Source: an uncultured Verrucomicrobiota bacterium (GTDB taxonomy: Bacteria > Verrucomicrobiota > Verrucomicrobiia > Opitutales > Seribacteraceae). From it: a stretch of DNA of 34,249 nucleotides. This document shows positions 4,181 through 27,128 of the stretch, piece by piece. The stretch spans positions 1-34,249 of the forward strand of contig CACMZN010000023.1 in assembly GCA_902618175.1 (NCBI GenBank), read 5' to 3'. Below the pieces are notes generated by a model. It was given only the letters and a program-made list of their open reading frames with translations. It made no database searches and was not told where the DNA came from. Position numbers and translations under genes: made by a program. Positions within the stretch are counted from its first letter, which is position 1. Each line of letters starts with the position of its first letter.

Positions 4181-4939
4181 TTATTTCGGAAAGAGCAAAT
4201 CAATTTCTTTGTTTGTTAATTCTCTATATTGCCCGAGGGGAATCTTACCTAACCTTAATCCCCCAATGGAGATTCTTCTTAGCTTTACAATCTTATATTT
4301 TAAAAATGCGAAAACTCTCCTAATTTCCCTTTTCTTGCCATGACAAAGAATAACCTCCAATTTTCTCAAACCAATTGGATTACCGTTCTTTGCCCGAACT
4401 TCATCGAGTTTTATAAATTCGCCCCCTTCTTGAAACCCAGATAACATAATAGAAAGATGTTCCTTTTTAAGTGGTGGATCAATTTCTACCTGATATTTTT
4501 TTCTGATCATCATGGAGGGATGAGTCAGTCGGTGAGCCAAATTACCGTCATTTGTGAGGATGACAAGACCCTGACTTTCAACATCTAACCTCCCAGCACA
4601 GAAGAGACGTAACTTTCTGTGCTTGGCTTCCAAGAGCTCAAATATCAAATTCTTAGCATGCTCATCTTGATTTGAACAAGTGTAATCTTTTGGTTTGTTT
4701 ACCATTAATGCGATGCCTTCAACAAATTTTGCCTGAATTCGCTTTCCATTGATTTTAACTACATCTTTTTCTGGATTGATGCGGCACCCTAATTTTACGG
4801 TTTCACCATTAACGCTCACGGATCCGGAAAGAATCCATTCTTCTCCCTTCCTCCTTGAGCAAAGACCTAAGTTGGCCAAAAACTTTTGTAATTTCGGAAA
4901 ATCGTGATTTGAGGTTTTTCCTTTTTTTTGATCGGTCAT
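4181..4939 (-). CDS. RluB/RsuA-family pseudouridine synthase
   Basis: Isomerises uridine to pseudouridine in ribosomal RNA, probably 23S if it is RluB-like. The 252 residues contain an N-terminal S4 RNA-binding domain (about 14-60, with KFLANLGLCSRRKGEEWI) and a catalytic domain with the signature GRLDVESQGLVILTNDG, in which D119 is the catalytic aspartate. The C-terminal part has KREIRR and LRLGKIPLG, as in the RsuA/RluB/RluE/RluF group. I cannot assign the exact target uridine. It is the first gene of the minus-strand run. Its start faces fabG across an 88-bp intergenic region, so the region should hold two divergent promoters; I found no convincing match to consensus. Confidence 0.9.
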   Translation of the reverse strand: MTDQKKGKTSNHDFPKLQKFLANLGLCSRRKGEEWILSGSVSVNGETVKLGCRINPEKDVVKINGKRIQAKFVEGIALMVNKPKDYTCSNQDEHAKNLIFELLEAKHRKLRLFCAGRLDVESQGLVILTNDGNLAHRLTHPSMMIRKKYQVEIDPPLKKEHLSIMLSGFQEGGEFIKLDEVRAKNGNPIGLRKLEVILCHGKKREIRRVFAFLKYKIVKLRRISIGGLRLGKIPLGQYRELTNKEIDLLFPK

Positions 4940-5027
4940 TTTAAATTGTGGGTTGCTTTAAGAGGTGGATTTTAAGATTTGTCAAATCATGTCCAATTCT
5001 CGTCATGTTCTAAACTAGTTCAATTTT

Positions 5028-5777
5028 ATGAAGGAAGAAATTTTAAATAACAAAGTAGCTCTAGTGACTGGAGCGGGAAGGGGTATCGGAAAAGGCATTG
5101 CTCTTTCATTGGCAAGTGATGGGATGCATGTGATTTGTGTAAGTAAATCATTAAGTTCTTGCGGTTCAACTGCAGAGGAGATCATACAGCAAGGCGGTAG
5201 TGCGGAAGCTCACGCGGTCGATGTATCTTCTGGGGAGGAAATCAGAAGGATTTGTGAAGAATTGCTTACGGAGCATCAATTTATCGAGGTTTTAGTCAAC
5301 AACGCTGGCATTACTAGAGATAATCTGTTGTTTCGAATGGAGGAAGAGCATTGGAACGAGGTGATCAATACCAACTTGAACAGCTGTTTTCATTGGATTA
5401 AAGCCCTTGGTCGCCCGATGACTAGGAAAAGAACGGGAAGAATTCTTAATGTTTCTTCCGTTGTGGGACTTACGGGAAATGCAGGCCAAGCAAACTATGC
5501 TGCAGCAAAAGCAGGGATGATTGGATTGACTAAGAGTTTGGCTCGTGAATTTGCTGCAAGATCCGTTACGGTCAACGCAATCGCACCTGGTTTCATTGAT
5601 ACGGATATGACTTCTTCTCTCGATGAACGCGTCAAGGAAGTGGCGTTGAACTCTGTTCCTTTGAAGAGATTTGGAAGCGTCTCCGATATAGCAGGCATGG
5701 CGTCTTATTTATGTTCAGATAAAGCTTCCTATGTCACCGGTAAAGTTTTTACGGTTGACGGAGGGATGGTGATGTGA
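5028..5777 (+). CDS. fabG: 3-oxoacyl-ACP reductase
   Basis: NADPH-dependent reduction of 3-oxoacyl-ACP to 3-hydroxyacyl-ACP in type II fatty-acid synthesis. It is a classical short-chain dehydrogenase of 249 residues: TGAGRGIGKGIA near the N-terminus, NNAG in VNNAGITRDN, the catalytic serine in NVSSVVG, the Y-x3-K in NYAAAKAG, and the C-terminal VTGKVFTVDGGM typical of FabG. It is the first of three co-directional genes fabG-acpP-fabF, a standard core fatty-acid order, which fixes its function better than the fold alone. No Shine-Dalgarno sequence precedes the ATG (the bases just before it are caatttt). Confidence 0.95.
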   Translation: MKEEILNNKVALVTGAGRGIGKGIALSLASDGMHVICVSKSLSSCGSTAEEIIQQGGSAEAHAVDVSSGEEIRRICEELLTEHQFIEVLVNNAGITRDNLLFRMEEEHWNEVINTNLNSCFHWIKALGRPMTRKRTGRILNVSSVVGLTGNAGQANYAAAKAGMIGLTKSLAREFAARSVTVNAIAPGFIDTDMTSSLDERVKEVALNSVPLKRFGSVSDIAGMASYLCSDKASYVTGKVFTVDGGMVM

Positions 5778-5813
5778 ACAACAAAACATTATAAAAATCA
5801 ATATTTAATCATT

Positions 5814-6056
5814 ATGTCAGATGTAAACGCAGATCGCGTAAAAAAAATAATTGTCAGTCAGCTTAACGTAAGTGAAGAGCAAGTAACCCCTGAAGCTAGT
5901 TTCATTGATGATCTAGGAGCTGATTCTTTGGATCAGGTCGAATTGGTAATGGCTCTGGAAGAAGAATTCGGAGCCGAAATACCGGAGGAAGAGGCTGAGA
6001 AACTTCAAACGGTAGGCTCTGTAATTGATTATGTTCAAAATAATCTTTCCTCCTGA
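5814..6056 (+). CDS. acpP: acyl carrier protein
   Basis: Carries growing acyl chains on a 4'-phosphopantetheine arm. The 80-residue acidic protein has the classic [18 protein letters not shown] helix-II region; the serine of DSL (S37) is the attachment site. It lies 36 bp after fabG and 71 bp before fabF, so it is the primary-metabolism ACP, distinct from the second ACP at 11212-11472. The leader is almost pure A/T without a Shine-Dalgarno sequence, unusual for one of the most abundant proteins in the cell. Confidence 0.97.
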
Positions 6057-6127
6057 CAGCCTCTTGGCTTTTACATAGTGAGTTCTGGTTAATTCGCCCT
6101 CGCATTTGGCTTGGTTCTGAAAGTGAG

Positions 6128-7366
6128 ATGAAACAAGTAGTCGTATCTGGTATTGGTGTTATTACTTCCTTAGGTAGTGGTGTCGATGAGTTTTGGGACG
6201 GATTGAAGTCAGGTCGATCAGGTATTACCAAAGTCACACGTTTTGACTCTTCGGACATACCCAGCAAAGTAGCGTCGGAGGTTTGTAATTTCGATCCCAA
6301 CGACTTTATGGACACTAAGGAAGCTCGGCGGAATGACAGGTATGCTCAACTTGCATTGGCCGCGACCCATTTTGCTCTCATTGACGCAGGTCTTTCTAGA
6401 GATGATCTAATTCCACAGAGAACAGGGGTACTTGTAGGTTCAGGTATTGGGGGGATGGAAACAATTGAAAAGCAAATGACCACTCTGATTGAAAGAGGAC
6501 CACGGAGAGTATCGCCTTTCATGATTCCCTCCTTGATCGCCAATATAGCAGGTGGGATCATTGCAATCGATTTAGGTGCAACGGGTCCAAACTTCGCTTG
6601 CGTCAGTGCATGTGCTTCTGGTTCCCATGCGATAGGTGAAGCATTCGAAATGATTCGTCGAGGAGTTGCCGATATAATCTTCGCTGGAGGAAGCGAAGCA
6701 GCCGTGACTAGAATTGGCTTTGCTGGTTTTTCCTCGATGAAGGCAATGAGTACTAAATTCAATGATGATCCAAGTCGAGCATCTAGACCTTTTGAACGCA
6801 ACCGGGATGGCTTTGTTATGGGTGAGGGTTCGGGAGTATTGGTTTTGGAGACCAAAGAAAATGCTGAAAGAAGAGGAGCTCGTATTTATGCAGAAATCAT
6901 AGGGTATTCAGCAAGTTGTGATGCTTACCATGTCACAACGCCAGATGTGCAGAGCATGTCACTAACTCGATGTATGAACCTTGCCCTCGAGCAGGCTTCA
7001 GTTTCCAAGGAAAAAATCGACTATGTAAACGCTCACGGCACCTCAACTCCATACAACGATCGATCTGAGACTATAGCATTGAAGAATGTCTTTGGGCAAC
7101 ATTCCCAAACTGGACTCATGGTAAGTTCGACCAAATCCATGACCGGACACCTTTTGGGAGCTGCTGGTGCCATAGAGGCAGCAGCGGTTTGTAAGGCAAT
7201 CGATGAAAATGTTGTTCCACCTACGATCAATTACGAAGAACCCGACCCTGATTGCGATTTGGATTACATTCCCAACGAGTCAAGAGATGCCAAAGTGAAT
7301 ATTGCCATGAGCAACAATTCAGGTTTTGGCGGTCACAACGCGTCCTTGGTGTTCCGCAAATTGTAA
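6128..7366 (+). CDS. fabF: beta-ketoacyl-ACP synthase II
   Basis: Condenses acyl-ACP with malonyl-ACP in chain elongation. The 412-residue length matches FabF. The catalytic triad is complete: cysteine 162 in VSACASGSHAIG, a histidine in NAHGTSTPYND and a histidine in TGHLLGAAGAIEAA, with the structural lysine in STKSMTGH. C-terminal NSGFGGHNAS is also typical. It closes the fabG-acpP-fabF unit; tRNA-Arg follows 73 bp later. Comparison with the second ketosynthase at 11496-12740 is useful: this one has the ordinary VSACASGS pocket, the other GAACAAGN. Confidence 0.96.
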   Translation: MKQVVVSGIGVITSLGSGVDEFWDGLKSGRSGITKVTRFDSSDIPSKVASEVCNFDPNDFMDTKEARRNDRYAQLALAATHFALIDAGLSRDDLIPQRTGVLVGSGIGGMETIEKQMTTLIERGPRRVSPFMIPSLIANIAGGIIAIDLGATGPNFACVSACASGSHAIGEAFEMIRRGVADIIFAGGSEAAVTRIGFAGFSSMKAMSTKFNDDPSRASRPFERNRDGFVMGEGSGVLVLETKENAERRGARIYAEIIGYSASCDAYHVTTPDVQSMSLTRCMNLALEQASVSKEKIDYVNAHGTSTPYNDRSETIALKNVFGQHSQTGLMVSSTKSMTGHLLGAAGAIEAAAVCKAIDENVVPPTINYEEPDPDCDLDYIPNESRDAKVNIAMSNNSGFGGHNASLVFRKL

Positions 7367-7439
7367 GACCGAAAGCTAGTCAAGTGGGTGTTTGTTTGTG
7401 CTTGCGGGAATAGATACAAGGTTTACTGTGTGATGTTTC

Positions 7440-7516
7440 GCACCCGTAGCTCAATTGGATAGAGTGCCTGACTACGGATCAGGAGGTTGGGGGTTCGACT
7501 CCCTCCGGGTGTGCCA
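7440..7516 (+). tRNA. tRNA-Arg(ACG)
   Basis: A full cloverleaf of 77 nt with encoded CCA. The acceptor stem is GCACCCG/CGGGTGT (closing G-U wobble), the D stem GCTC/GAGT, the anticodon stem CCTGA/TCAGG with loop CTACGGA, and the T arm GGGGG-TTCGACT-CCCTC. The anticodon ACG (7474-7476) reads CGN arginine codons; in bacteria its A is normally edited to inosine by TadA. It lies downstream of fabF on the same strand and could be read from its own promoter (TTGTTT at 7392, TACAAG at 7415, 17-nt spacing, weak). Confidence 0.96.
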
Positions 7517-7595
7517 TTCCTGTCCAAGCTGAAACGAATTTTTTCTTAGGGTTTAACAAGGGAGATTTATTTTTATGATCCGTTTTGAAAGGTGA

Positions 7596-8879
7596 TTAAG
7601 AAGAGGAGTTTTTCGATGATTCGCCTTTCTCGGAATCATCCTCTTTTTCGTTTTCATTAGAATCTTTGCTCTTTCCATAAAGGGTGTCCTGAGAATCTTT
7701 CTTCTTAGAGTCTCCGTCTTTCATCTCTCTTTTCTTTTCTAAGCGTTCATCAATCTTGTCAGGATGGGAGTCATCTTTGGAGTCGTCCTTATCTTCGGTT
7801 GAATTTTCATCCGAAGGCTTTTCATTGCCCTGATTTTGGTCAGAACCTTTATCATCCTTTTTGTCGGATGCGTTCTTATCTTCTTTGCTTTTCGGATCAT
7901 TTTTTGAACTCTCACTATCTTTATCTTCAGAAGACTCCTGTTTCTTTGCGTGTGCTTTTTTCTTTGCTTCGGCAATCGCTTTTTTCTTTTCTTTTTCAGA
8001 TTCCAACTTTTCTTGCTTGTTTTTCTGCATGCGTGCCTGGACGAAGGAAATGATGCACAAAATGACAAAGATCAATAGGAGACCAGCAGATAAAAGCATT
8101 GATACTGACTTAAGCATCGAAGCATGAACGATTCCATAGGGCTCTGCTTTCAACCACTGCATCTCATTCACTGCTCCGCCAACCTTACCTGCAACGATGA
8201 AGAAGCAAAGCAAACCAATCAAAACCGCCAAGTGCATAATGTGCTTACGGGCCTTGGGAATGACTTCCGCTGCCTGTGCCAAAAAAATCAGCAGGATGCC
8301 TATTATTCCAGGAATAAACGCAGTCCAGCTTTTCTTGAAGGTCAACTTATCATTCGGTTTGAGGGGAGGGTTTAATTCTACATTTGTCCAATTGTTTGAT
8401 TGCAAAGTGACTGGACCCGGATTGCTGGCGGCGTTATTATAAACAAATCGGATTGTCGAGCGATTTATGTCAATGCTTGTCCAGTCAACTGAAATTATTT
8501 CACCCGATCCAGCGTTCTTGTATTTTTCAGATTCCTTTAGCAAGCCCTCGAGTGTTTCGCCTTTTGAGGAAGCATACCAAAAAGACTTTATATCATTAGG
8601 CTTGGAAGACTCGTTGGCAAAATAATTACCCTGAGAAGCAACACCAGCGTGTTCTTCATTCAGCTTGTGAATAATCCACCAAGCATTTTCACCCGCCGAT
8701 TCAGGAACTGGAATAAAATCCAATTCATGCTTTTCTTCTCCATCTGACAGAACGAATGTCGCATCATCCGCAAGAGGACCAGTAAGCTTGATCGACAAGC
8801 CGAGATCTTGAAAAAGATAACCAGCCAACCCAGTAAGTACGAGAAGACTGCCTATGACAAAGGTGGGAATCTTGAGCAT
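7596..8879 (-). CDS. membrane protein with long charged C-terminal tail
   Basis: Not recognised. The 427-residue product has an N-terminal helix (about 5-23), an extracytoplasmic-looking domain of about 160 residues (26-185) rich in W, N and S, then three membrane helices (about 187-204, 214-232 and 257-281). The rest, about 283-427, is a low-complexity tail: first a Lys/Glu/Ala stretch likely to be helical or coiled coil (LESEKEKKKAIAEAKKK), then Asp/Glu/Lys/Ser-rich and almost free of hydrophobic residues, ending in SSKNSSS. The tail is probably cytoplasmic and disordered. No enzymatic motif is visible. It stands alone between tRNA-Arg and the divergent clpS gene. Confidence 0.75.
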   Translation of the reverse strand: MLKIPTFVIGSLLVLTGLAGYLFQDLGLSIKLTGPLADDATFVLSDGEEKHELDFIPVPESAGENAWWIIHKLNEEHAGVASQGNYFANESSKPNDIKSFWYASSKGETLEGLLKESEKYKNAGSGEIISVDWTSIDINRSTIRFVYNNAASNPGPVTLQSNNWTNVELNPPLKPNDKLTFKKSWTAFIPGIIGILLIFLAQAAEVIPKARKHIMHLAVLIGLLCFFIVAGKVGGAVNEMQWLKAEPYGIVHASMLKSVSMLLSAGLLLIFVILCIISFVQARMQKNKQEKLESEKEKKKAIAEAKKKAHAKKQESSEDKDSESSKNDPKSKEDKNASDKKDDKGSDQNQGNEKPSDENSTEDKDDSKDDSHPDKIDERLEKKREMKDGDSKKKDSQDTLYGKSKDSNENEKEDDSEKGESSKNSSS

Positions 8880-8990
8880 AATAACAAATAAAGATCTTTA
8901 CTTACTTCAGGCAAGCATCGAAAGGGAAGGCAGAACAAAAAATGAGCTTTTAAAATCGGATTTGTTGACTAAGCGTATAGAATAACTGGA

Positions 8991-9730: not shown

Positions 9731-11173
9731 TCAGGATAATATATGATTATTTGCAACTGCAATACCACCCATCATGGCACCAACGATTCCAACATAACCT
9801 TGATCGGTACCGGCAATGAAAAGATTTTTGTAGGGTGTCGAACCGTCTCTACTTTTTGTAGGCGATCCATACAGCGCTCCATTCTCGTGTGATGTGAAGC
9901 GTTTTATTGTTTTGGGAGTGAAAGTATCGGTGAATTCAGTTTTGCAGACGATATCGTCGTACTGTTCAATCCCATTAGTGAGGTATTTTAAGCCATTTGT
10001 TAGAATTTTTTCCTCCCAATTCTTTTTTGTTACCTCATATTCTCTGGTATTCAGTTCGTTCCATCGGTTAAAATTTGCCGGATGCGTTATGCGAAGTTTG
10101 CTTTCTCTTGGTTGAAGCGTTTCGGATAAACCATAATTCTCAGGCAAGCAGATCACCCCTGATCGCAAATCGACGTAATCCGATGGGGTAGAGTAGTCGA
10201 ACTTCGAATTTTGATTAAAAAATACAACAGTTTCATCCCAACCAAAATCTTTTGGGCTTCCTGCAAAAACTTTTATTGACTCGATTATAGTGAAGCGTCC
10301 GGTTTCAGCGTGTTTGTGGTAGTTTTCATCGTTCAGTAAATTCTGCGTTTCAACGATTCCACAAGTCGAGATGATATAATCCGCCTCAAGTTCATCACCA
10401 CCAGCGAGCTTTACGCAGGTGATTCGGTCTTGTTGTGTTTCAATGCTTTGTACGGGTGTATTCATTCTTCTCTCAACTCCAAGCTTCGAAAGCTTATGAG
10501 TAATTTGGTCAAGGATTGAGCGAATGCCTTTGGCTGGTCTTGCCAATCCTTGTCTGAAAATAGCATCGAACAACATTACGAAAGTGGGAAAGTCGATATC
10601 ATTGGAACGCGCTGAACCGTAATAACAGGTTGGACATAGCAGCATTTCTGATAGCAAGTCATCCTGGAAATGCTCTTTTAAAATTCTCCTTGTCGACAAT
10701 TCTCTTGCTTTGGTCGAGTAGGCTGGGAAGTCCAACATTTTCTTCATCAAAGTCAAAAATCTTTCGAATTGAAGGGGAAAATTCTTTTCTATCTCCGAGA
10801 TAAAGTAATCAAATTCATTATTGAATCGAAGATGTGAGTCTCCAAAGGAAATTCTTGAATGGCTTTGCTCCTTTAATTCAAGTGAATCAATTGAAATTCT
10901 CAGTTGTCTACAAATTTTAACAAGAGGGGAGGATTTTGCTGTACTAGGGGAGGGAAAATTGGTTAATGCATGCAATCCAACATCGAATTTGCGCCCTTTT
11001 TTTGCGTAAAAACTATTTAACCCACCGACCACAAAATGTTTTTCCAAAAGCAGAACCTTTTTTCCAAACATCGCCAGCCTTAGAGCTGCTGAAAGACCAG
11101 ACAAACCAGCCCCGATGATGATCACATCATGACGGGTGACCTTACTTGAATCTTTAGGTGAAGGTGCAGACAA
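9731..11173 (-). CDS. phytoene desaturase-like FAD-dependent oxidoreductase
   Basis: A 480-residue flavoprotein of the CrtI/carotenoid isomerase type. The dinucleotide-binding motif is VIIIGAGLSGLSAALRLA (about 17-34), followed by LLLEKHFVVGGLNSF and FDVGLHALTNF as in CrtI-like enzymes; the C-terminal FAD motif is NLFIAGTDQGYVGIVGAMMGG. Members desaturate, saturate or isomerise long polyene or acyl chains. No prenyltransferase or phytoene synthase is in the window; instead a dedicated ACP and ketosynthase lie directly upstream on the same strand (38 bp from the ACP). A substrate bound to that ACP, or an acyl product, is therefore more likely than a carotenoid. The start is a TTG at 11173; no in-frame ATG precedes the glycine motif. 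Confidence 0.85.
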   Translation of the reverse strand: MSAPSPKDSSKVTRHDVIIIGAGLSGLSAALRLAMFGKKVLLLEKHFVVGGLNSFYAKKGRKFDVGLHALTNFPSPSTAKSSPLVKICRQLRISIDSLELKEQSHSRISFGDSHLRFNNEFDYFISEIEKNFPLQFERFLTLMKKMLDFPAYSTKARELSTRRILKEHFQDDLLSEMLLCPTCYYGSARSNDIDFPTFVMLFDAIFRQGLARPAKGIRSILDQITHKLSKLGVERRMNTPVQSIETQQDRITCVKLAGGDELEADYIISTCGIVETQNLLNDENYHKHAETGRFTIIESIKVFAGSPKDFGWDETVVFFNQNSKFDYSTPSDYVDLRSGVICLPENYGLSETLQPRESKLRITHPANFNRWNELNTREYEVTKKNWEEKILTNGLKYLTNGIEQYDDIVCKTEFTDTFTPKTIKRFTSHENGALYGSPTKSRDGSTPYKNLFIAGTDQGYVGIVGAMMGGIAVANNHILS

Positions 11174-11211
11174 ACCCTATGAAATAGAAACTCGCAACGA
11201 AAGATTGCAAT

Positions 11212-11472
11212 TTAGGCCACGGCACCAGAATCAAACTTTGGCAACAGATAATTCGCGGAACTGTCCAAGGACTCCAATTCGCGGTACTCAGCTTCAGGAA
11301 CGTCAATCCCGTGTTGCTTGCGTAGTTCCATTACGATATCCAAAAAATCCATGGAATCGAGATCAAGTTGGTCTCGCAGACGGATGTTGGACTTCACCTC
11401 GGTGAGATCCTCATCGGGAGCAATCTCAGCGATGATATCGAGGACGATTTTCTTGATTTTTTCCTTATTCAT
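11212..11472 (-). CDS. acyl carrier protein of the secondary cassette
   Basis: An 86-residue ACP with the phosphopantetheine serine in LDLDSMDFLDIVMELRK (S40), so DSM rather than the usual DSL. It diverges strongly from the acpP product at 5814-6056 (for example the FLDIVMEL helix and the HGIDVPEAEY segment). It lies 23 bp after the ketosynthase and 38 bp before the flavoprotein gene. This places it as a dedicated carrier for that cassette rather than a spare copy for primary fatty-acid synthesis. The ATG at 11472 has no Shine-Dalgarno sequence. Confidence 0.92.
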   Translation of the reverse strand: MNKEKIKKIVLDIIAEIAPDEDLTEVKSNIRLRDQLDLDSMDFLDIVMELRKQHGIDVPEAEYRELESLDSSANYLLPKFDSGAVA

Positions 11473-11495
11473 GGGCTAATATTTCTTTTTCTATC

Positions 11496-12740
11496 TTAGC
11501 CAGAAAACTTTTTCAAGATTAGAACGGAATTGATTCCGAGCATTCCAAAGGAATTATTGAGAATTATATTAATACCGCCGCGCTTTTGTTTTGCTTCGTT
11601 CATGACCAATCCAGAAAGCGAACATGTCGGATCCAATTCATCAATGTTTATGGTTGCATGGACCATTCCGTCTCCAAAGGAGGGAAGATTCCCGGCAAGT
11701 TCCAATGCACCGGCAGCCCCCATGGAATGTCCGATGAAGCTTTTGGTATTGTTGATACAAGTGTTCTCGGAAATCCCAAATACATTTTCCAAGGCTTTAC
11801 ACTCTTGTGGATCACCCTGTGGCGTGGAGGTAGCGTGAGAGCTGACCAAATCAATCATGGATGGAGTGACCTCGGCATTTTTCAAGGCCTGACGTATGCA
11901 TTCTTCCTGTCTCTCAGGATTAGGAAGTACATAATCAGTGCCATCAGAATTTATGCGGTAGCCCATGATCTCAGCAAGTATGTTTGCTCGCCGGGCCATG
12001 GCATCACTTAGCCTTTCAAGTACATATATGCATCCTCCTTCGCTGACCACGATTCCATTTCTCTCCTTGTCGAAGGGACGGCTTGCTTTTTTAGGGTCGG
12101 AATGGCTCGCCAAAGCACCCTGGCTTTTAAATCCGGCAAAGATACCATAAGCACGAATACTCTCACTCACGCCCCCAGCCAAAGCAACTTTGCATTCGCG
12201 AAGTCTCAGCATCTGAACTCCTTGGATAATTCCTGCATTTCCAGCTGCACAAGCTGCCCCAACCGTGTAATGAGGTCCTGTCAGACCGAGGTTCACGGTT
12301 ATTTCTCCGGCTGGGTTGTTCGCCACTGTTCTTGGGTTGTGATGATGTGTCCAGTATTTGACGTCTTGCTCGTAGTGATCAAACTGTTGGCAAACCTCAG
12401 TTTCCGTTTCGACATTCCCATGTTCAGTTATGCCCAGATATACACCCACACTAGATGGATTAATCTCACTTAAATCCAGACCAGCATTCTTCAAGGCTTC
12501 ACGGGCGCAATAAATGCCAATGCCACCCGCCCGAGTTCCGACTCGAACTTCCTTACGCTTTTGATATTTGGTCTGCTCGAAATCACAAACCCCAGCGGGT
12601 TGCTCTCCCATATTGCGAACGGAAAACGAGCGAACACCACTTCTAGCTTCCAAGAGCCCATTCCTAAAAGTTGGCAAGTCATTGCCTAAGGGACAGGTCA
12701 AACCCAGGCCTGTTATGACAATTCGCTCCTTATCAACCAT
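11496..12740 (-). CDS. FabF-like beta-ketoacyl-ACP synthase, secondary cassette
   Basis: A 414-residue ketosynthase of the KAS II fold with a complete active site: cysteine 164 in GAACAAGNAG, a histidine in SSHATSTPQGD, and a lysine and histidine in NTKSFIGHSMGAAGALE. It differs from FabF at 6128-7366 around the pocket (YWTHHHNPRTVANNPAGE ahead of the nucleophile), suggesting another acyl substrate. It should condense an acyl thioester with malonyl bound to the neighbouring ACP. It is followed by that ACP and the CrtI-like flavoprotein, and lies 80 bp downstream of an NtrC-type activator. I searched the 80-bp gap by eye for a sigma-54 promoter (TGGCAC-N5-TTGC) and found none. Confidence 0.92.
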   Translation of the reverse strand: MVDKERIVITGLGLTCPLGNDLPTFRNGLLEARSGVRSFSVRNMGEQPAGVCDFEQTKYQKRKEVRVGTRAGGIGIYCAREALKNAGLDLSEINPSSVGVYLGITEHGNVETETEVCQQFDHYEQDVKYWTHHHNPRTVANNPAGEITVNLGLTGPHYTVGAACAAGNAGIIQGVQMLRLRECKVALAGGVSESIRAYGIFAGFKSQGALASHSDPKKASRPFDKERNGIVVSEGGCIYVLERLSDAMARRANILAEIMGYRINSDGTDYVLPNPERQEECIRQALKNAEVTPSMIDLVSSHATSTPQGDPQECKALENVFGISENTCINNTKSFIGHSMGAAGALELAGNLPSFGDGMVHATINIDELDPTCSLSGLVMNEAKQKRGGINIILNNSFGMLGINSVLILKKFSG

Positions 12741-12820
12741 TTTTCAAAGTTTTGAAAAAACCTCGTGGATTTCATTCAGTGCATTAAACGAACAAAAATA
12801 AGACTTCACAAACCAATTGC

Positions 12821-14410
12821 TTAATAGCGAATTGCAAAGGAATCGATTCTTTTGCGCAAAGTAGCCCGAGTAATTCCAAGAAGGGCGGAAGCCTTTACTT
12901 GATTTCCCCGACACTCTTTAAGTGTTCTGCAGATCATTTCTTTTTCAACAGTTTCAAGTAAATTTCGATCTGTTTTTGCTCGAGCATGAGCATAAGCAAT
13001 GTCAAAACTTTCATCTGAACTAATGGAACTTGGAGCTTCGATGAAAAACTCATCACTCTTTTTTCCCACACCCTCTTGTCCAAAGAAGGATTTGCTTTTC
13101 AACAAATCAGCTTTGTGTGATTCAGGCTGGTTTTTTTCGGTTTTTTCCTTTTCAAGATTTTGAATTTCAAAGCTAGACGCATCATTTTCGTCATCCTTCG
13201 CCTCAGATAATTTTTCTCCATCATGAATCTCCATCAGGGTCGTGGGCAAATCCTTGCTTAGGATTCGTTTACCTTTGGAAACTACTGAAGAGGAATGAAG
13301 CACATTTTCCAATTCTCTAACGTTTCCGGGCCAGTCATACTTCTTAAGTAATTCAATTGCCTCCTTCGAAATTTCATTTGTCCCTGTGGAATGATTTTTA
13401 TCTAGACGTTGAAGCATGAAATCGATGAGCTCCGGCAAGTCTTCCATACGATTGCGCAAGGGTGGTATTTCGATGCGCACAACATTCAGACGATAGTACA
13501 AATCTTCACGAAAACTTTTTTCCTGTACCATCTCCTCCAAGTTCTTGTGAGTTGCTGCAATCAATCTTACATCCACTTTCTTAACTTTTGTAGCTCCCAC
13601 TCTTTGAATCTCACCTTCTTGTATGGCTCTCAAGATCTTTGTTTGGGTTTGCAGTTGCATGTCACCAATCTCATCTAGGAAAAGAGTACCACCATGACAA
13701 AGTTCAAATTGCCCAGCTTTTGCGTCAGTTGCACCCGTAAAGGACCCTTTTTCATGCCCGAAAAGTTCGCTTTCGATAAGGTTTTCTGGGATTGCAGCAC
13801 AATTTACTGCATAAAACGGTCCACTTGATCTATGACTATGGCGATGAACACATCGGGCTATCAACTCCTTTCCAGTACCACTTTCGCCAGTCACCATTAT
13901 GGTTGCCTCTGATGCAGCAACTTGACCGACTTTTTTTAACACATGTTGCATTTTCTCACCACTGCCAACAATTCCCTCAGCATAATCGGCAGTATTGAGA
14001 AGTCTTTGGTATTCCTCTTTGGAACTAATTGAATCTTGACCTGCTTTAAGGGCTTTGGAAACCAAGCCCTTAAGTTTGACGATATCGAACGGTTTGAGAA
14101 CATAGTCAAATGCACCATGTTTCATCGCTTCAATCGCGGTTTGGGTCGTACCATAAGCAGTCATCAGAATTACCAACGAATCAGGCGCCGTTGTTCTCAA
14201 ATGCTGAAGAGTTTCAATTCCGGAAATTCCCCCCATTCTGTTATCCAAAAAAATAAGATTTGGTTTCTCCTTTTTTGCAGTCTCTATGCCTTTTTCGCCT
14301 GAGTCTGCAGAGATCAGATCATGACCGTCTTGGCTAAGCACTCTGTCAAGTGAATAACGAATTTCCGCATCGTCATCGATGATTAAAATTGTCGATTTGT
14401 CTTTAGTCAC
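12821..14410 (-). CDS. NtrC-family sigma-54-dependent response regulator
   Basis: A 529-residue transcription activator. The receiver domain (about 6-125) has the phosphoacceptor D56 in IFLDNRM, T84 and K106. The AAA+ domain has Walker A GESGTGKE (175-182), the sigma-54 contact loop as GSFTGA (222-227, where GAFTGA is usual) and Walker B TLFLDEIGD. The C-terminal Fis-type helix-turn-helix (about 490-527) includes NQVKASALLGITRATLRKRI. Between AAA+ and the HTH lies an unusually long acidic, polar linker (about 395-480). The start is a GTG at 14410; no in-frame ATG is available. No partner histidine kinase is in the window. Position suggests, but does not prove, that it controls the ketosynthase cassette downstream. 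Confidence 0.93.
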   Translation of the reverse strand: MTKDKSTILIIDDDAEIRYSLDRVLSQDGHDLISADSGEKGIETAKKEKPNLIFLDNRMGGISGIETLQHLRTTAPDSLVILMTAYGTTQTAIEAMKHGAFDYVLKPFDIVKLKGLVSKALKAGQDSISSKEEYQRLLNTADYAEGIVGSGEKMQHVLKKVGQVAASEATIMVTGESGTGKELIARCVHRHSHRSSGPFYAVNCAAIPENLIESELFGHEKGSFTGATDAKAGQFELCHGGTLFLDEIGDMQLQTQTKILRAIQEGEIQRVGATKVKKVDVRLIAATHKNLEEMVQEKSFREDLYYRLNVVRIEIPPLRNRMEDLPELIDFMLQRLDKNHSTGTNEISKEAIELLKKYDWPGNVRELENVLHSSSVVSKGKRILSKDLPTTLMEIHDGEKLSEAKDDENDASSFEIQNLEKEKTEKNQPESHKADLLKSKSFFGQEGVGKKSDEFFIEAPSSISSDESFDIAYAHARAKTDRNLLETVEKEMICRTLKECRGNQVKASALLGITRATLRKRIDSFAIRY

Positions 14411-19769: not shown

Positions 19770-20690
19770 TTAATGTTTTTCGATCATTTTCTTGATTACT
19801 TTCATTTCCTCCGTAATTTCATGCATTCGTTTGTGAAGATCGTCGATACCATCGCGAATGGGCTCTTCCTTTTGTTGGCGTCTTTGTATTTCTTGCCGTA
19901 TCGACAGTTCTTCCTTTGATTCATCCATGCTGTTCATTATAACCCCGATGACCAAGTTAAGTACGATCATGGTACCGATGAGGACAAAACTTACGAAGAA
20001 AATTGAAGCGCCCAAGGGGGATGCGGAGGAATTCGGATTCCAATTGCTTAAGTCCTCGGAAGTGTAGCCATAGGCATTTGAGCCATACATGTTGATGTAC
20101 ATGACGTCCGTCCAATCCTCTAAGGTAACTACCCGAAACAGTGAAAGGATGGAAATTTGCAAATTTCTAAAGTGAATCGGATCGTTCTCTCCATAAAGAA
20201 AGACTGCCATAGTGCCATAAACGTAAAAGAGTAGAAAAAGCAAGATGCTCACATAAAACATGGAAGGAAGGCTTTTTAGCAGGCAACTTACCAAGACCTG
20301 AAGTTTTGGAATGGCGGTCACCAATTTTAGGACTCGAAGGATTCTTGCTAAACGAAGCACGGGTAGGAATGTGCCTCCCAATGAAAGAAAAGGTTCCAGC
20401 AGACATGCAGCCACAATGGTGAAATCAAAGACATTCCATGGATTCTTGAAGTAATTGAGGGGTCGATTTCCTTCAGCGAGAATCTTTATCAATGCCTCAA
20501 CTGCGAAGACAGTTAGAATAATCCTATCCAGAAGAGTTAGGATACCTACATTCTGTAGGGAGAAATCCTTGTAGGTTTGGGCTCCAACCACAATGCCCGC
20601 CAATAAAATAGTGACGATGATTGTATTTTGAAAAAGAGAGCTTTGGCAGATCTGGGAACAACTTATCGCTAATGAATTCTTTTTTTCCAT
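19770..20690 (-). CDS. voltage-gated cation channel, BacNaV type
   Basis: A 306-residue one-repeat (six-helix) ion channel that should work as a homotetramer in the inner membrane. S1-S4 span about 20-135; S4 carries four gating charges three residues apart (R113, R116, R119, K122 in VLRLARILRVLK). The pore loop is SLFRVVTLEDWTDVMYI, with the selectivity filter T189-LEDWTD-195, and S6 follows (about 228-253, NLVIGVIMNSM). The C-terminus (about 256-304) is a charged likely coiled coil, as in NaChBac. The filter differs from the sodium-selective TLESWSM by two aspartates, the change that makes engineered NavAb calcium selective. About 25 residues rich in N, S and Y separate the filter from S6. 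Confidence 0.9.
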   Translation of the reverse strand: MEKKNSLAISCSQICQSSLFQNTIIVTILLAGIVVGAQTYKDFSLQNVGILTLLDRIILTVFAVEALIKILAEGNRPLNYFKNPWNVFDFTIVAACLLEPFLSLGGTFLPVLRLARILRVLKLVTAIPKLQVLVSCLLKSLPSMFYVSILLFLLFYVYGTMAVFLYGENDPIHFRNLQISILSLFRVVTLEDWTDVMYINMYGSNAYGYTSEDLSNWNPNSSASPLGASIFFVSFVLIGTMIVLNLVIGVIMNSMDESKEELSIRQEIQRRQQKEEPIRDGIDDLHKRMHEITEEMKVIKKMIEKH

Positions 20691-23984: not shown

Positions 23985-25781
23985 TTAATTAAGTATCAAG
24001 GTGTCGAGAACAACTTTTGTATCAGGAAGAGCGTTGCGGAGATTTTCAACTCCTTTTTCAGTGACTTTAGAATTCAATAGATAAATCTCTTCCAATCCTT
24101 TCATAGAGGACAAGGTACGAACACTTCTATCGGTAACTGCAGTACCAACAAGATTTAGGTATTTAAGATGCTGAAGTTTCGATATTGCTTCGATACCACG
24201 GTCACCGGCAAGTGTGTTTCTTAAGCTCAACCAGGTTAGATTTCCAAAACCTTTGATCTTATTAAGACCCTGATCCGTAATTTTCGTCTTTGATAAGTCG
24301 AGGTGTGAAATATTGTTCTTGATTTTCGTTAAAGAGTCAATTGCGTCATCCTTAACTAGGCTAGCGGCTGAAGAAAATTCTGCTCTGACTAAAGAGTGTC
24401 TTTCTGCTAAGGGTGTAACTAAAGCCCCACTTTTCATTGCATCCTTTAAACCAGCGTTGGATACGCTGGTTACTCTTTTTGAAAGCATGGACAAAAGAGA
24501 ATCATTTTTTCCGACGACAGAGAAATTTTCACCCGATTCGATCAATCCCTTTTTGACTTTCGGCGGTGCATTCGGATCAGCGGCAAATTTTGCAGGGCGT
24601 GCAAGGGCACCTTCAAGTATCCATCTTTTGATCATCACGATCTGATCATCTGAAAGTGGTTTACCCTTGGGAGGCATAATTTCTGCCTCATCTTCTCCAA
24701 GTGTAACTACATAATACAATGTGCTCTCTTCTGGATTTCCTGATTCAACAATGGGTCCGTCTAAGTTGCCTTTCATTACCGATTCATGGGTGTCGAGTCT
24801 TAATCCTGCACGAGGTTTGATGGTTCGACCATTGTTGACGTAGGGAGCAGCATGACATTCCATGCACCGATCTTGAAACAAAGGCATAATGTGCCTATCG
24901 AAGCTCACAGGTTCATCGTCTCTTGGAAGAGTGCCTGTTCCAACCATAACTCCACCGCCGTCTGCACTTTCTTTAGCTCCCTCAATAATCCATCTCTTGA
25001 TGATGTCGATTTGTTCTGAATCTAAGGGACCTCCTTTTGGTGGCATAAACAAATCATCGTCTTCAGACAGGGTGATGACTTCGTAAATGATGCTGTCTTC
25101 TGGCTTGCCTGCCTCAACAATCGATCCGCTGGCATTACCTTTTATTATCGAAGCATGATCATCGAGAACAACTCCAGCCTTGGGATTAATGGTCTTACCG
25201 TTTTTTTCGTGAGGTGAACTATGACAAGTGTTACACCGTTCTTCGAAGATAGGCAATACGTGTCTGGAAAAGTCAATGGGTTCGCCAGGTAGAGGAATGG
25301 AAGAACCAATATCTACAACAACCTCATGGGGGTCCTCATCCAAAGCGACTGGTCGGTGGGAGAAGAAAGAACCGTTACGAAAAGTTGGTTTTTTTGTTGG
25401 GGGGGGACGTAGTATTTTGGTCTCATCCTGATCTGCAACCGTCATAGAATCACTTTCCATTTCAACACTCATATCTGAATCAGGTTCAGAATTTGAGGTT
25501 GCGGAGGTAATTTCCGAACGCTTGGGAACACCCTGAGGTATTCTCCCTTCATTTACGGCATTGAGGAGATAAGCTTTGTCATCAGCCGAGAGAGCGTCAA
25601 ATCCTACCTGCATCATTTTGCCTTGTTGATTCATGAGAATAAACAAGGTACCTTTGTATCCAACTGCTTTTCCAACTACCGACTGGCCTTCGGGTGTGGT
25701 GAAGGTCCTGAACGGTTCAACCGCCGAAACTGAAGAAAAGAGAAAAAATAACCCAAAAATTGTTAGTTTAAGTTTTCCCAT
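23985..25781 (-). CDS. SHD1 / double PSC1 cytochrome c / leucine-rich repeat protein
   Basis: A 598-residue secreted multidomain protein. After a signal peptide (about 1-20) comes an SHD1-like beta domain (22-75), an acidic linker, then two homologous planctomycete-type cytochrome c (PSC1) domains. The first has the haem site C183-NTC-H187 and MPPKGGPL (from M246); the second has C306-MEC-H310 and MPPKGKPL (from M369). The repeat period is about 123 residues. The last 120 residues contain leucine-rich repeats (HLDLSKTKITDQGLNKI and relatives). It follows a DUF1501 and a DUF1549/DUF1553 gene on the same strand, a group usual in Planctomycetes and Verrucomicrobia and often near sulfatases. A redox role is inferred from the haem motifs; the substrate is unknown. 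Confidence 0.88.
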   Translation of the reverse strand: MGKLKLTIFGLFFLFSSVSAVEPFRTFTTPEGQSVVGKAVGYKGTLFILMNQQGKMMQVGFDALSADDKAYLLNAVNEGRIPQGVPKRSEITSATSNSEPDSDMSVEMESDSMTVADQDETKILRPPPTKKPTFRNGSFFSHRPVALDEDPHEVVVDIGSSIPLPGEPIDFSRHVLPIFEERCNTCHSSPHEKNGKTINPKAGVVLDDHASIIKGNASGSIVEAGKPEDSIIYEVITLSEDDDLFMPPKGGPLDSEQIDIIKRWIIEGAKESADGGGVMVGTGTLPRDDEPVSFDRHIMPLFQDRCMECHAAPYVNNGRTIKPRAGLRLDTHESVMKGNLDGPIVESGNPEESTLYYVVTLGEDEAEIMPPKGKPLSDDQIVMIKRWILEGALARPAKFAADPNAPPKVKKGLIESGENFSVVGKNDSLLSMLSKRVTSVSNAGLKDAMKSGALVTPLAERHSLVRAEFSSAASLVKDDAIDSLTKIKNNISHLDLSKTKITDQGLNKIKGFGNLTWLSLRNTLAGDRGIEAISKLQHLKYLNLVGTAVTDRSVRTLSSMKGLEEIYLLNSKVTEKGVENLRNALPDTKVVLDTLILN

Positions 25782-25799
25782 ACAGTGCGCGAAAAAAAA

Positions 25800-27098
25800 C
25801 TATGAGAGAACTTCTTGTACAGGATCACCATTGTGAGCGACGGTGAAAGGTCTCCCAGAAGGTGAATACTGGACGTCATTGAGAGGAAGCCCCAATGCAT
25901 AAGCTAAAGTTGCGTTTAAATCTTCGGGTTTGACTGGTTTGTCCTTGCTTAAGTTTCTACCGATTTCGTCTGTATCTCCAAACGACGTACCTCCCTTGAT
26001 GGCACCCCCTGCAAGAAAAGCAGTGTAGTAATAAGGCCAGTGATCTCTACCGTCTCTGGGATTGATATTCGGAGTCCGACCGAATTCTGAAGTCAATACC
26101 ACGATTGTCTCCTTTAGAAGACCGCGAACTTCAAGATCAAGAAGCAGACCGCTCAAAGCCTTGTCGATCTCGCTGCAGTTCTCAGCAACTCTTTCAAAAT
26201 TGTTGTCATGGGTATCCCAGCCTCCTCTGGTTACTTCGACATATCGCACTTGATTTTCAATGAGTCGGCGTGCGAGTAAACAGCCTTGTCCAAAGTTGGA
26301 TGTTCCGTAGAGTTCGTGCATGGCTTCGGGTTCCTGCTCGATGTCAAAGGCATTGAGATCCTCGCTTCTCATAAGCTTGACCGCATCCCTGTAGAGATCG
26401 GTGTACGCTCTGACTTGTTTTTGTGGAAATCTACCAGTAAAAGTTGAGTTCATCTTGGAAGCAAGATCGATACGGCTCTGGAAATGATTTTGGTCGAGGT
26501 GTTCGGCCATAGTACTGTTGGCAAGACCAGACTCAGGGTTCCCAATGGGCAAAGGTCCGTATTTCGATTCCAAGAAACCGGCCCCATGTGAACCACCCCC
26601 GATTTTAACATTCATTGGTATGGTCCTGTTGATCTCACCAGAAAGTTTAGCTACCCAGCTGCCAAAAGAAGGGTGAACGATCGTACCCCTTTTCAAGTAG
26701 CTGGTGTGCATAAGATAACTAGCTTGCTCATGAGCACCCTGACTTGTGACCATGGAACGAATAACGGCGGAATTATGGGCGTGTTTGGCAACTTCAGGCA
26801 GGTGTTCGGAAAGTATGATGTCGTCCGCAGTGGTTTGAATGGATTTTGTGGGACCTTGAATGGCAGGTGCATCAGGTTTTGGTCCGAAAGTATCTAAGTG
26901 AGACATCGCCCCTGCCATATTCAAGTAAATGATGTGCCTTGCACTTGCCGGACGAGCTCCAGGTTCCAAAGCTTTTATGGAGTTGTGTATGTAAGCTCCC
27001 GCCATCGGCATGAGACCAACTCCCAAGCAAGCCTTCGCGGCATTGGCAATAAATTCCCTGCGTCCAAGTTCATCTATGCTGTTGAAACTAGTTTTCAT
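25800..27098 (-). CDS. DUF1501 family protein, probable Tat substrate
   Basis: A 432-residue DUF1501 protein, related in fold to sulfatases/alkaline phosphatases. The N-terminus has a twin-arginine pattern (GRREFIANAAKACLGVG, about 12-28), suggesting export in folded form. Family blocks are clear: HIIYLNMAGAMSHLDTFGPK, WDTHDNNF, LTSEFGRTP and GRDHWPYYYTAFLAGG. The C-terminus PSGRPFTVAHNGDPVQEVLS is typical. It lies 30 bp after the DUF1549/DUF1553 gene, its usual partner, and 18 bp before the PSC1-LRR gene; the three are probably one operon. Its catalytic activity is not established. Its start has the only clear Shine-Dalgarno sequence I found in the window. Confidence 0.93.
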   Translation of the reverse strand: MKTSFNSIDELGRREFIANAAKACLGVGLMPMAGAYIHNSIKALEPGARPASARHIIYLNMAGAMSHLDTFGPKPDAPAIQGPTKSIQTTADDIILSEHLPEVAKHAHNSAVIRSMVTSQGAHEQASYLMHTSYLKRGTIVHPSFGSWVAKLSGEINRTIPMNVKIGGGSHGAGFLESKYGPLPIGNPESGLANSTMAEHLDQNHFQSRIDLASKMNSTFTGRFPQKQVRAYTDLYRDAVKLMRSEDLNAFDIEQEPEAMHELYGTSNFGQGCLLARRLIENQVRYVEVTRGGWDTHDNNFERVAENCSEIDKALSGLLLDLEVRGLLKETIVVLTSEFGRTPNINPRDGRDHWPYYYTAFLAGGAIKGGTSFGDTDEIGRNLSKDKPVKPEDLNATLAYALGLPLNDVQYSPSGRPFTVAHNGDPVQEVLS

Positions 27099-27104
27099 TT
27101 GTAT

Positions 27105-27109
27105 TCCTT
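27105..27109 (-). promoter_or_regulatory. ribosome binding site of the DUF1501 gene
   Basis: AAGGA six bases ahead of the ATG at 27098. Notable because nearly all other genes in the window lack such a site. Confidence 0.6.
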
Positions 27110-27128
27110 AATATTATTCCATTTGCCG

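Follow-up and report, generated by a model that had tools for sequence, protein, structure and literature searches.

A dedicated ketosynthase cassette in an uncultured verrucomicrobial genome as the probable half of a dissociated supplier of polyunsaturated chains to the Ole hydrocarbon pathway

In Shewanella, the hydrocarbon made by the Ole enzymes depends on Pfa, a type I polyunsaturated fatty acid (PUFA) synthase, with a predicted 16:4 chain, and OleA appears to draw chains directly from the acyl carrier protein (ACP) domains of Pfa (PMC6463001, in the passage cited); the coupling of Pfa with Ole is already known (PMC6463001 and PMC3098273, passages cited). OleABCD has also already been found in Opitutae, and the passage concerned does not discuss a supplier of chains (PMC5673642). 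Desulfotalea psychrophila makes C31:8 and C31:9 and has CrtI-type clusters of type II fatty acid synthase (FASII) genes and, in the section cited, no known PUFA pathway; in 2009, a FASII extension was put forward as the source of its polyunsaturated chains (PMC2649909). 'Ladderane' clusters, possibly of unknown function, have been called by antiSMASH outside anammox bacteria, in Verrucomicrobiota and in other phyla (PMC9902471, passage cited). Here we describe a cassette that encodes a dedicated ketosynthase (KS), a dedicated ACP and a CrtI-like flavoprotein (CrtI1) behind an NtrC-type activator, on a 34,249-nucleotide stretch of DNA from an uncultured Verrucomicrobiota bacterium (assembly GCA_902618175.1, contig CACMZN010000023.1, positions 1 to 34,249; hereafter the window). 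With a probability of roughly 0.7, the cassette represents half of a type II synthase, dissociated and independent of oxygen, that makes polyunsaturated acyl-ACP and feeds the Ole enzymes for the formation of long-chain polyene hydrocarbons.

The window belongs to a 2.03 Mb genome that is 67% complete (G000; G and L numbers are our labels for genomes and loci) and whose nearest named relatives are Opitutia/Opitutales metagenome-assembled genomes (MAGs). On the minus strand, the gene for the NtrC-type sigma-54 activator (14410-12821; Pfam Response_reg, Sigma54_activat and HTH_8, that is, receiver, AAA+ and Fis-type helix-turn-helix domains) was followed after 80 bp by that for the KAS II-like (FabF-like) KS (12740-11496; Pfam ketoacyl-synt N and C domains), after a further 23 bp by that for the ACP (11472-11212; PP-binding, PF00550) and after 38 bp by that for CrtI1 (11173-9731; Pfam Amino_oxidase), a flavin adenine dinucleotide (FAD) protein with TTG as the first codon of its open reading frame (ORF) and an uncertain true start. 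ORF calls confirmed this order, the shared direction and the two short gaps, all of which had been reported in an earlier note on this DNA; the intact Cys-His-His site that the note had seen in the KS was confirmed by the motifs VGAACAAG, HATST and GHSMG, and its DSM motif in the ACP by LDSMDF. The KS scored 307 bits against the NCBIfam fabF model and did not reach the equivalog cut-off of 493.75; it was 35% identical to the FabF of its own genome and only about 33-38% identical to the ordinary FabF of relatives. CrtI1 scored 76.2 bits against crtI_fam, below the cut-off of 238.1, and the closest solved folds, which are FAD amine-oxidase-like, were carotenoid desaturases. Among the matches listed, no NCBIfam model was met at its cut-off by the KS, the ACP or CrtI1, and standard annotation would therefore label the cassette as a generic FabF, ACP and FAD oxidoreductase. 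Searches of PDB sequences with the KS, CrtI, FabZ and ACP returned general relatives only. A scan of 84,980 species genomes for the KS clade yielded at least 80 loci with 58-84% identity, and those among the matches listed include Planctomycetota, Dehalococcoidia/Chloroflexi, Bacteriovoracaceae and unplaced MAGs. The tree placed the KS in a distinct clade of 34 rows (100/99 support), and in 122 aligned KS sequences the Cys, His and His were kept in every motif variant listed (these variants cover 115, 72 and 113 rows at the respective sites).

The second half was found on contig C31 of the same genome (locus L124), where CrtI2, a second CrtI-like protein (7438-8928), FabZ (6961-7398), FabI (6149-6955), OleA (5124-6152) and OleB (4243-5139) were encoded on the minus strand as one operon in one direction. 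CrtI2, FabZ and FabI were assigned by family match. OleA scored 358 bits against NF006720 (cut-off 285), with the profile match at G000:C31:5136-6152 and the Cys122 motif SNACLG; OleB was 45% identical to the OleB of the OleABCD operon in L109 and was named in NCBIfam only as haloalkane dehalogenase, below cut-off. All 12 OleA loci that were retrieved from this genome's family had the same five-gene order. Alignments of 43 FabZ (16 anammox rows left out), 46 FabI, 54 OleA and 39 OleB sequences revealed >93% conservation of FabZ His44 and Glu58, FabI Tyr155 and Lys162, OleA Cys122 and OleB Asp118, which we take to be the catalytic residues. Genes for a XerC/D-like recombinase (L124:3035-3979) and a YceI-like protein (L124:2200-2811) come after oleB, and both were near oleB in 10/12 of the family loci. 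The earlier note had described a dehydratase and a reductase as missing, which holds for the cassette but not for the genome: FabZ and FabI are encoded on C31 beside CrtI2 and oleA-oleB, and the product is therefore most likely destined for hydrocarbon formation by the Ole pathway.

The KS and OleA occurred together across two phyla. Among 144 Verrucomicrobiota, of which every one but G000 was at least 90% complete, 32 genomes spread over 12 families carried the KS clade; CrtI2 was present in exactly those 32, and OleA passed its cut-off in 33. Both the KS and OleA were found in 31 genomes, whereas G161 had the KS alone, G100 and G172 had OleA alone, and 110 had neither. Among 293 Planctomycetota (at least 88% completeness requested), 84 had the KS and 124 had OleA, with both in 84 and the KS alone in none. 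OleA was also over its cut-off in 46 of 49 further KS-carrying genomes. The KS gene lay at most 7.1 kb from oleA in 40 of the 84 Planctomycetota, on the same contig but far away in 18 and on a different contig in 26; in Verrucomicrobiota it was within 15 kb of oleA in 10/31, and CrtI2 was within that distance in 15/31.

Genomes with OleA and no KS mostly carried Pfa-like genes. A search for PfaA (TIGR02813) in the genome of the window, which is 67% complete, gave nothing at E<=1e-100, and the KS and ACP of the window are separate genes, unlike the multidomain PfaA. Only two of the 144 Verrucomicrobiota had PfaA over the TIGR02813 cut-off, and these were G100 and G172, the two with OleA and no KS; PfaA and a KS/FabA-type protein directly adjoined oleA in G100, and Pfa and oleA were on separate contigs in G172. 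In the 40 KS-less Planctomycetota with OleA, Pfa-like proteins (31-59% identity to the Pfa proteins of G100 and G172 over hundreds to thousands of residues) were encoded in the oleA flank in 33, mostly directly adjoining oleA, and a chosen set of 20 oleA flanks from KS-carrying Planctomycetota contained no Pfa. Across both samples, 157 genomes had OleA: 115 had the module KS, 35 of the 42 without it carried a Pfa-like synthase (34 at oleA), and the other 7 showed no Pfa in the oleA flank. Two alternative suppliers seem to serve Ole, the type I Pfa or the dissociated module. OleA is apparently served by the ACP domains of Pfa, and a dedicated ACP would suit a hand-over of this kind.

In some other bacteria the two halves were found in one cluster. 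Fourteen KS loci were retrieved from other Verrucomicrobiota, picked mostly because the KS was close to oleA, and nine of them (L144-L151 and L153) had the eight-gene order KS-ACP-CrtI-CrtI2-FabZ-FabI-OleA-OleB; two of these nine clusters (L149 and L153) contained insertions of 4-5 kb. KS-ACP-CrtI-CrtI2-FabZ-FabI was the order in L066, L083 and others, and two Bacteriovoracaceae MAGs (L078 and L104), one of which also had OleD, encoded KS-ACP-CrtI-OleA-OleB-OleC. Between CrtI2 and FabZ, the loci L092, L111, L227, L228, L232 and L238 had a FabG-like gene whose product was 37-40% identical to the window FabG, so that a set of KS, ACP, ketoreductase (KR), dehydratase (DH) and, in part, enoyl reductase (ER) was complete in one cluster. 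Among the clusters with both halves, some from Planctomycetota, Dehalococcoidia and Bpl_4 contained FabG, and OleC and OleD were present in many clusters of relatives. The neighbours of Pirellula-type KS loci (a CitMHS transporter, a methyltransferase and UbiD) differed by lineage and pointed to no common function.

Close relatives provided 18 KS loci (L034-L050 and L112). All of them had NtrC next to the KS, on its upstream side; the ACP gene was there in 17 and the CrtI gene in 16, three of the latter being cut by contig ends, and the misses (L044 and L045) coincided with contig ends. The NtrC-KS-ACP-CrtI arrangement is fixed in close relatives and is not due to chance. Outside them, the ACP followed the KS, within about 1.3 kb, in 49/62 loci. 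NtrC homologues (50-60% identity) were near the KS in five other Opitutales loci (L145, L147, L148, L150 and L152), and by gene adjacency the NtrC-type activator is likely the regulator of the cassette. The sigma-54 link made by the earlier note stands in so far as NtrC adjoins the cassette, but -24/-12 sites were not above chance (18 found in the window with up to 2 mismatches, 16.0 expected), and a scan of the window found none just upstream of the KS or NtrC on their strand. In several Opitutaceae-type loci (L144, L146-L151 and L154) the KS was flanked by an NAD-epimerase-like gene in the opposite direction, the product of which was 25-28% identical to OleD and too distant to be assigned to it.

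The gene content, conservation, clustering, catalytic residues and near either/or relation with Pfa that were observed are best explained by a pathway in which the dedicated KS would extend chains on the dedicated ACP, FabG, FabZ and FabI would carry out reduction and dehydration, and CrtI1 and CrtI2 would create or reposition cis double bonds without oxygen. OleA is predicted to take two finished polyunsaturated chains off the dedicated ACP and to join them head to head, and the remaining Ole enzymes would lead to a long-chain polyene hydrocarbon such as C31:9; the module would stand in for the type I Pfa synthase. The cis double bonds of Pfa products are thought to come from FabA-type dehydratase/isomerase domains, and domains of this type were seen in the Pfa protein of G100. 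There is good reason to expect that the CrtI-like pair has a role in making double bonds, with a predicted chemistry of one of two kinds. It may shift or isomerise an enoyl bond without net redox, and such isomerisation occurs in other members of the CrtI-type fold. Alternatively, it may desaturate the acyl-ACP, a reaction put forward for D. psychrophila by Rattray and colleagues in the section cited (PMC2649909). On balance, and with some reserve, we favour the wider reading that the module is a second, independently evolved PUFA synthase, a dissociated and oxygen-independent type II system with two CrtI-type flavoproteins in place of the FabA-type isomerase domains of Pfa, that it is the main OleA supplier in Verrucomicrobiota and Planctomycetota (115/157 genomes with OleA), and that many non-anammox 'ladderane' calls may represent the same pathway.

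Several observations weigh against this pathway. The Fisher p values for the KS and OleA (5e-28 in Verrucomicrobiota and 6e-43 in Planctomycetota) ignore shared ancestry. Conservation of the KS-ACP-CrtI trio as a unit, which the earlier note had named as a check, was upheld in close relatives (16/18) but not elsewhere, where the KS and ACP were the firm pair and CrtI1 was near the KS in only 13/62 loci, many of the fetched stretches being short. In a set of 57 genomes of relatives, many of them incomplete, 43 had the KS and 44 had OleA but only 38 had both: the KS was without OleA in G006, G016, G024, G050 and G053, of which G016 and G053 are 92-95% complete, and OleA was without the KS in G001, G002, G009, G010, G029 and G032. 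Among the 49 further genomes with the KS, OleA was missing in G213 and G225 and represented by a sub-cut-off piece in G211. G161 had the KS and CrtI2 and no OleA over the cut-off, yet OleC and OleD were present; at this locus (L252) they lie 3.4 kb from CrtI2. Weaker, sub-cut-off PfaA-like matches were found in six Verrucomicrobiota, three of them with the KS (G048, G137 and G182). Family models were applied to one of the 33 Pfa-like flanks (L170), in which KS and FabA-type domains were present, and seven of the 40 oleA flanks contained no Pfa (L182, L184, L189, L190, L191, L192 and L204), L190 and L192 being contigs under 10 kb. Within the module, FabZ keeps the FabZ-type Glu and no FabA-type isomerase was seen. 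OleC and OleD were absent from the window and contig C31, the rest of the 67%-complete genome not having been searched.

Other products or partners would fit parts of these data. The chain that the module feeds to OleA could have just one or two double bonds or carry some other modification, and the hydrocarbon would then be no C31:9-like polyene; co-occurrence of the KS with OleA shows the partner and not the number of double bonds, and the catalytic residues of FabZ and FabI are normal. This is unlikely, if worth keeping in view, as the alternative supplier at oleA in KS-less genomes is a Pfa-like polyunsaturated synthase and two CrtI-like enzymes would seem too many for one double bond. A paralogous set that makes unsaturated fatty acids for the membrane, OleA simply drawing on the general pool, would be in keeping with the 44/84 Planctomycetota in which proximity of the KS to oleA was not seen (in 18 the two were distant on a single contig, in 26 they were on separate contigs). 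It is made quite improbable by the absence of the KS from OleA-less genomes (110/111 Verrucomicrobiota and 169/169 Planctomycetota) and from the 35 Pfa-Ole genomes.

A pigment pathway to a carotenoid or aryl-polyene via a CrtI-type desaturase is hardly credible: carotenoid desaturases are the nearest solved folds, but CrtI1 reached 76 bits against the crtI_fam cut-off of 238, no phytoene synthase or aryl-polyene gene was among the cluster genes annotated, and the cassette is partnered by FabZ, FabI and Ole genes, with OleA co-occurring. The carotenoid pathway was rejected on the family cut-offs and partner genes. Synthesis of ladderanes or ladderane-like lipids as in anammox bacteria, whose clusters the earlier note had brought into play, draws some support from Kuenenia, where FabF, ACP, CrtI-like and FabZ genes also cluster (PMC2649909, section cited), and from the antiSMASH calls outside anammox bacteria, in Verrucomicrobiota and in other phyla (PMC9902471, passage cited). 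This link was not borne out and is very improbable: the KS clade was found in 0/33 putative anammox genomes (E<=1e-70) and OleA in 1/33, four FabF rows from anammox CrtI clusters fell outside the 34-row KS clade, and anammox CrtI fell outside both the CrtI1 and CrtI2 clades. Membership of the ladderane pathway was rejected by distribution and trees; the anammox enzymes are a different branch, and the shared parts list alone therefore does not point to ladderanes. The putative anammox loci L206-L218 had a conserved FabZ-FabF-FabF'-CrtI order in which Cys-His-His is lost from FabF', a loss also listed for Kuste3606. L184 is from a 5.9-Mb genome (G475) that encodes a hydrazine-synthase-like protein and OleA, with neither the KS clade nor Pfa at the locus, and may be a mixed bin. 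HZS_alpha (PF18582) domains were present in many copies, mostly within long ORFs, in the non-anammox-looking Planctomycetota G337, G409, G526, G482 and G376.

The window also encoded a separate, ordinary fatty acid set on the plus strand, consisting of fabG (5028-5777), acpP (5814-6056) and fabF (6128-7366), and this set was complete, as the earlier note had said. Its proposal of a special acyl or polyene product on a dedicated carrier, and not ordinary fatty acids, is one that we infer to be right. Elsewhere on the minus strand were an Ion_trans channel protein (19770-20690), possibly a bacterial voltage-gated channel, and a run of PSCyt1 (planctomycete-type cytochrome), DUF1501 and PSCyt2/PSD1 genes (23985-29654) in what is a verrucomicrobial genome.

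The individual parts described here are already known. In the open-access literature searched, neither a dissociated OleA supplier that alternates with Pfa nor a proposal of a type II supplier of OleA was found, except for the 2009 FASII extension for PUFA of Rattray and colleagues. The module amounts to a concrete and testable set of genes by which polyunsaturated acyl chains could be made in the absence of both oxygen and Pfa, and it would account for the way in which Pfa-less Planctomycetota and Verrucomicrobiota with OleA could form polyene hydrocarbons. It is a possible identity for the non-anammox 'ladderane' clusters left without known function in the passage cited (PMC9902471). Seven small proteins and the Ole enzymes should be easier than Pfa to express and dissect.

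Compared with known systems, the module KS resembles FabF (KAS II) in its domains and Cys-His-His site and differs in falling below the NCBIfam fabF cut-off. The FAD-dependent isomerase of Propionibacterium acnes that produces conjugated linoleic acid (PDB 2b9w) has 11% identity and acts on free fatty acid, not on acyl-ACP. The anammox ladderane-candidate clusters of the Kuste3606/Kuste3607 type are similar in having FabZ, FabF and CrtI-like genes side by side, but contain a FabF pair of which one member is without Cys-His-His, and their KS and CrtI belong to other clades. The D. psychrophila clusters (DP1860, DP2405 and DP2406, two with consecutive locus tags) combine FASII genes with CrtI-like proteins and are likened to the module by description, not by sequence; the radical SAM and ligase genes of D. 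psychrophila were not noticed among the genes annotated for the module (PMC2649909, section cited). Pfa (PfaABCDE) with OleABCD, as in Shewanella, Photobacterium and Geobacter bemidjiensis, is like the module in supplying chains to OleA, in its place beside oleA and in its KS, ACP, KR, DH and ER activities. Pfa, however, is composed of giant type I proteins whose several domains include FabA-type dehydratase/isomerases, whereas the module is built of discrete parts with a FabZ-type DH and two added CrtI-like flavoproteins.

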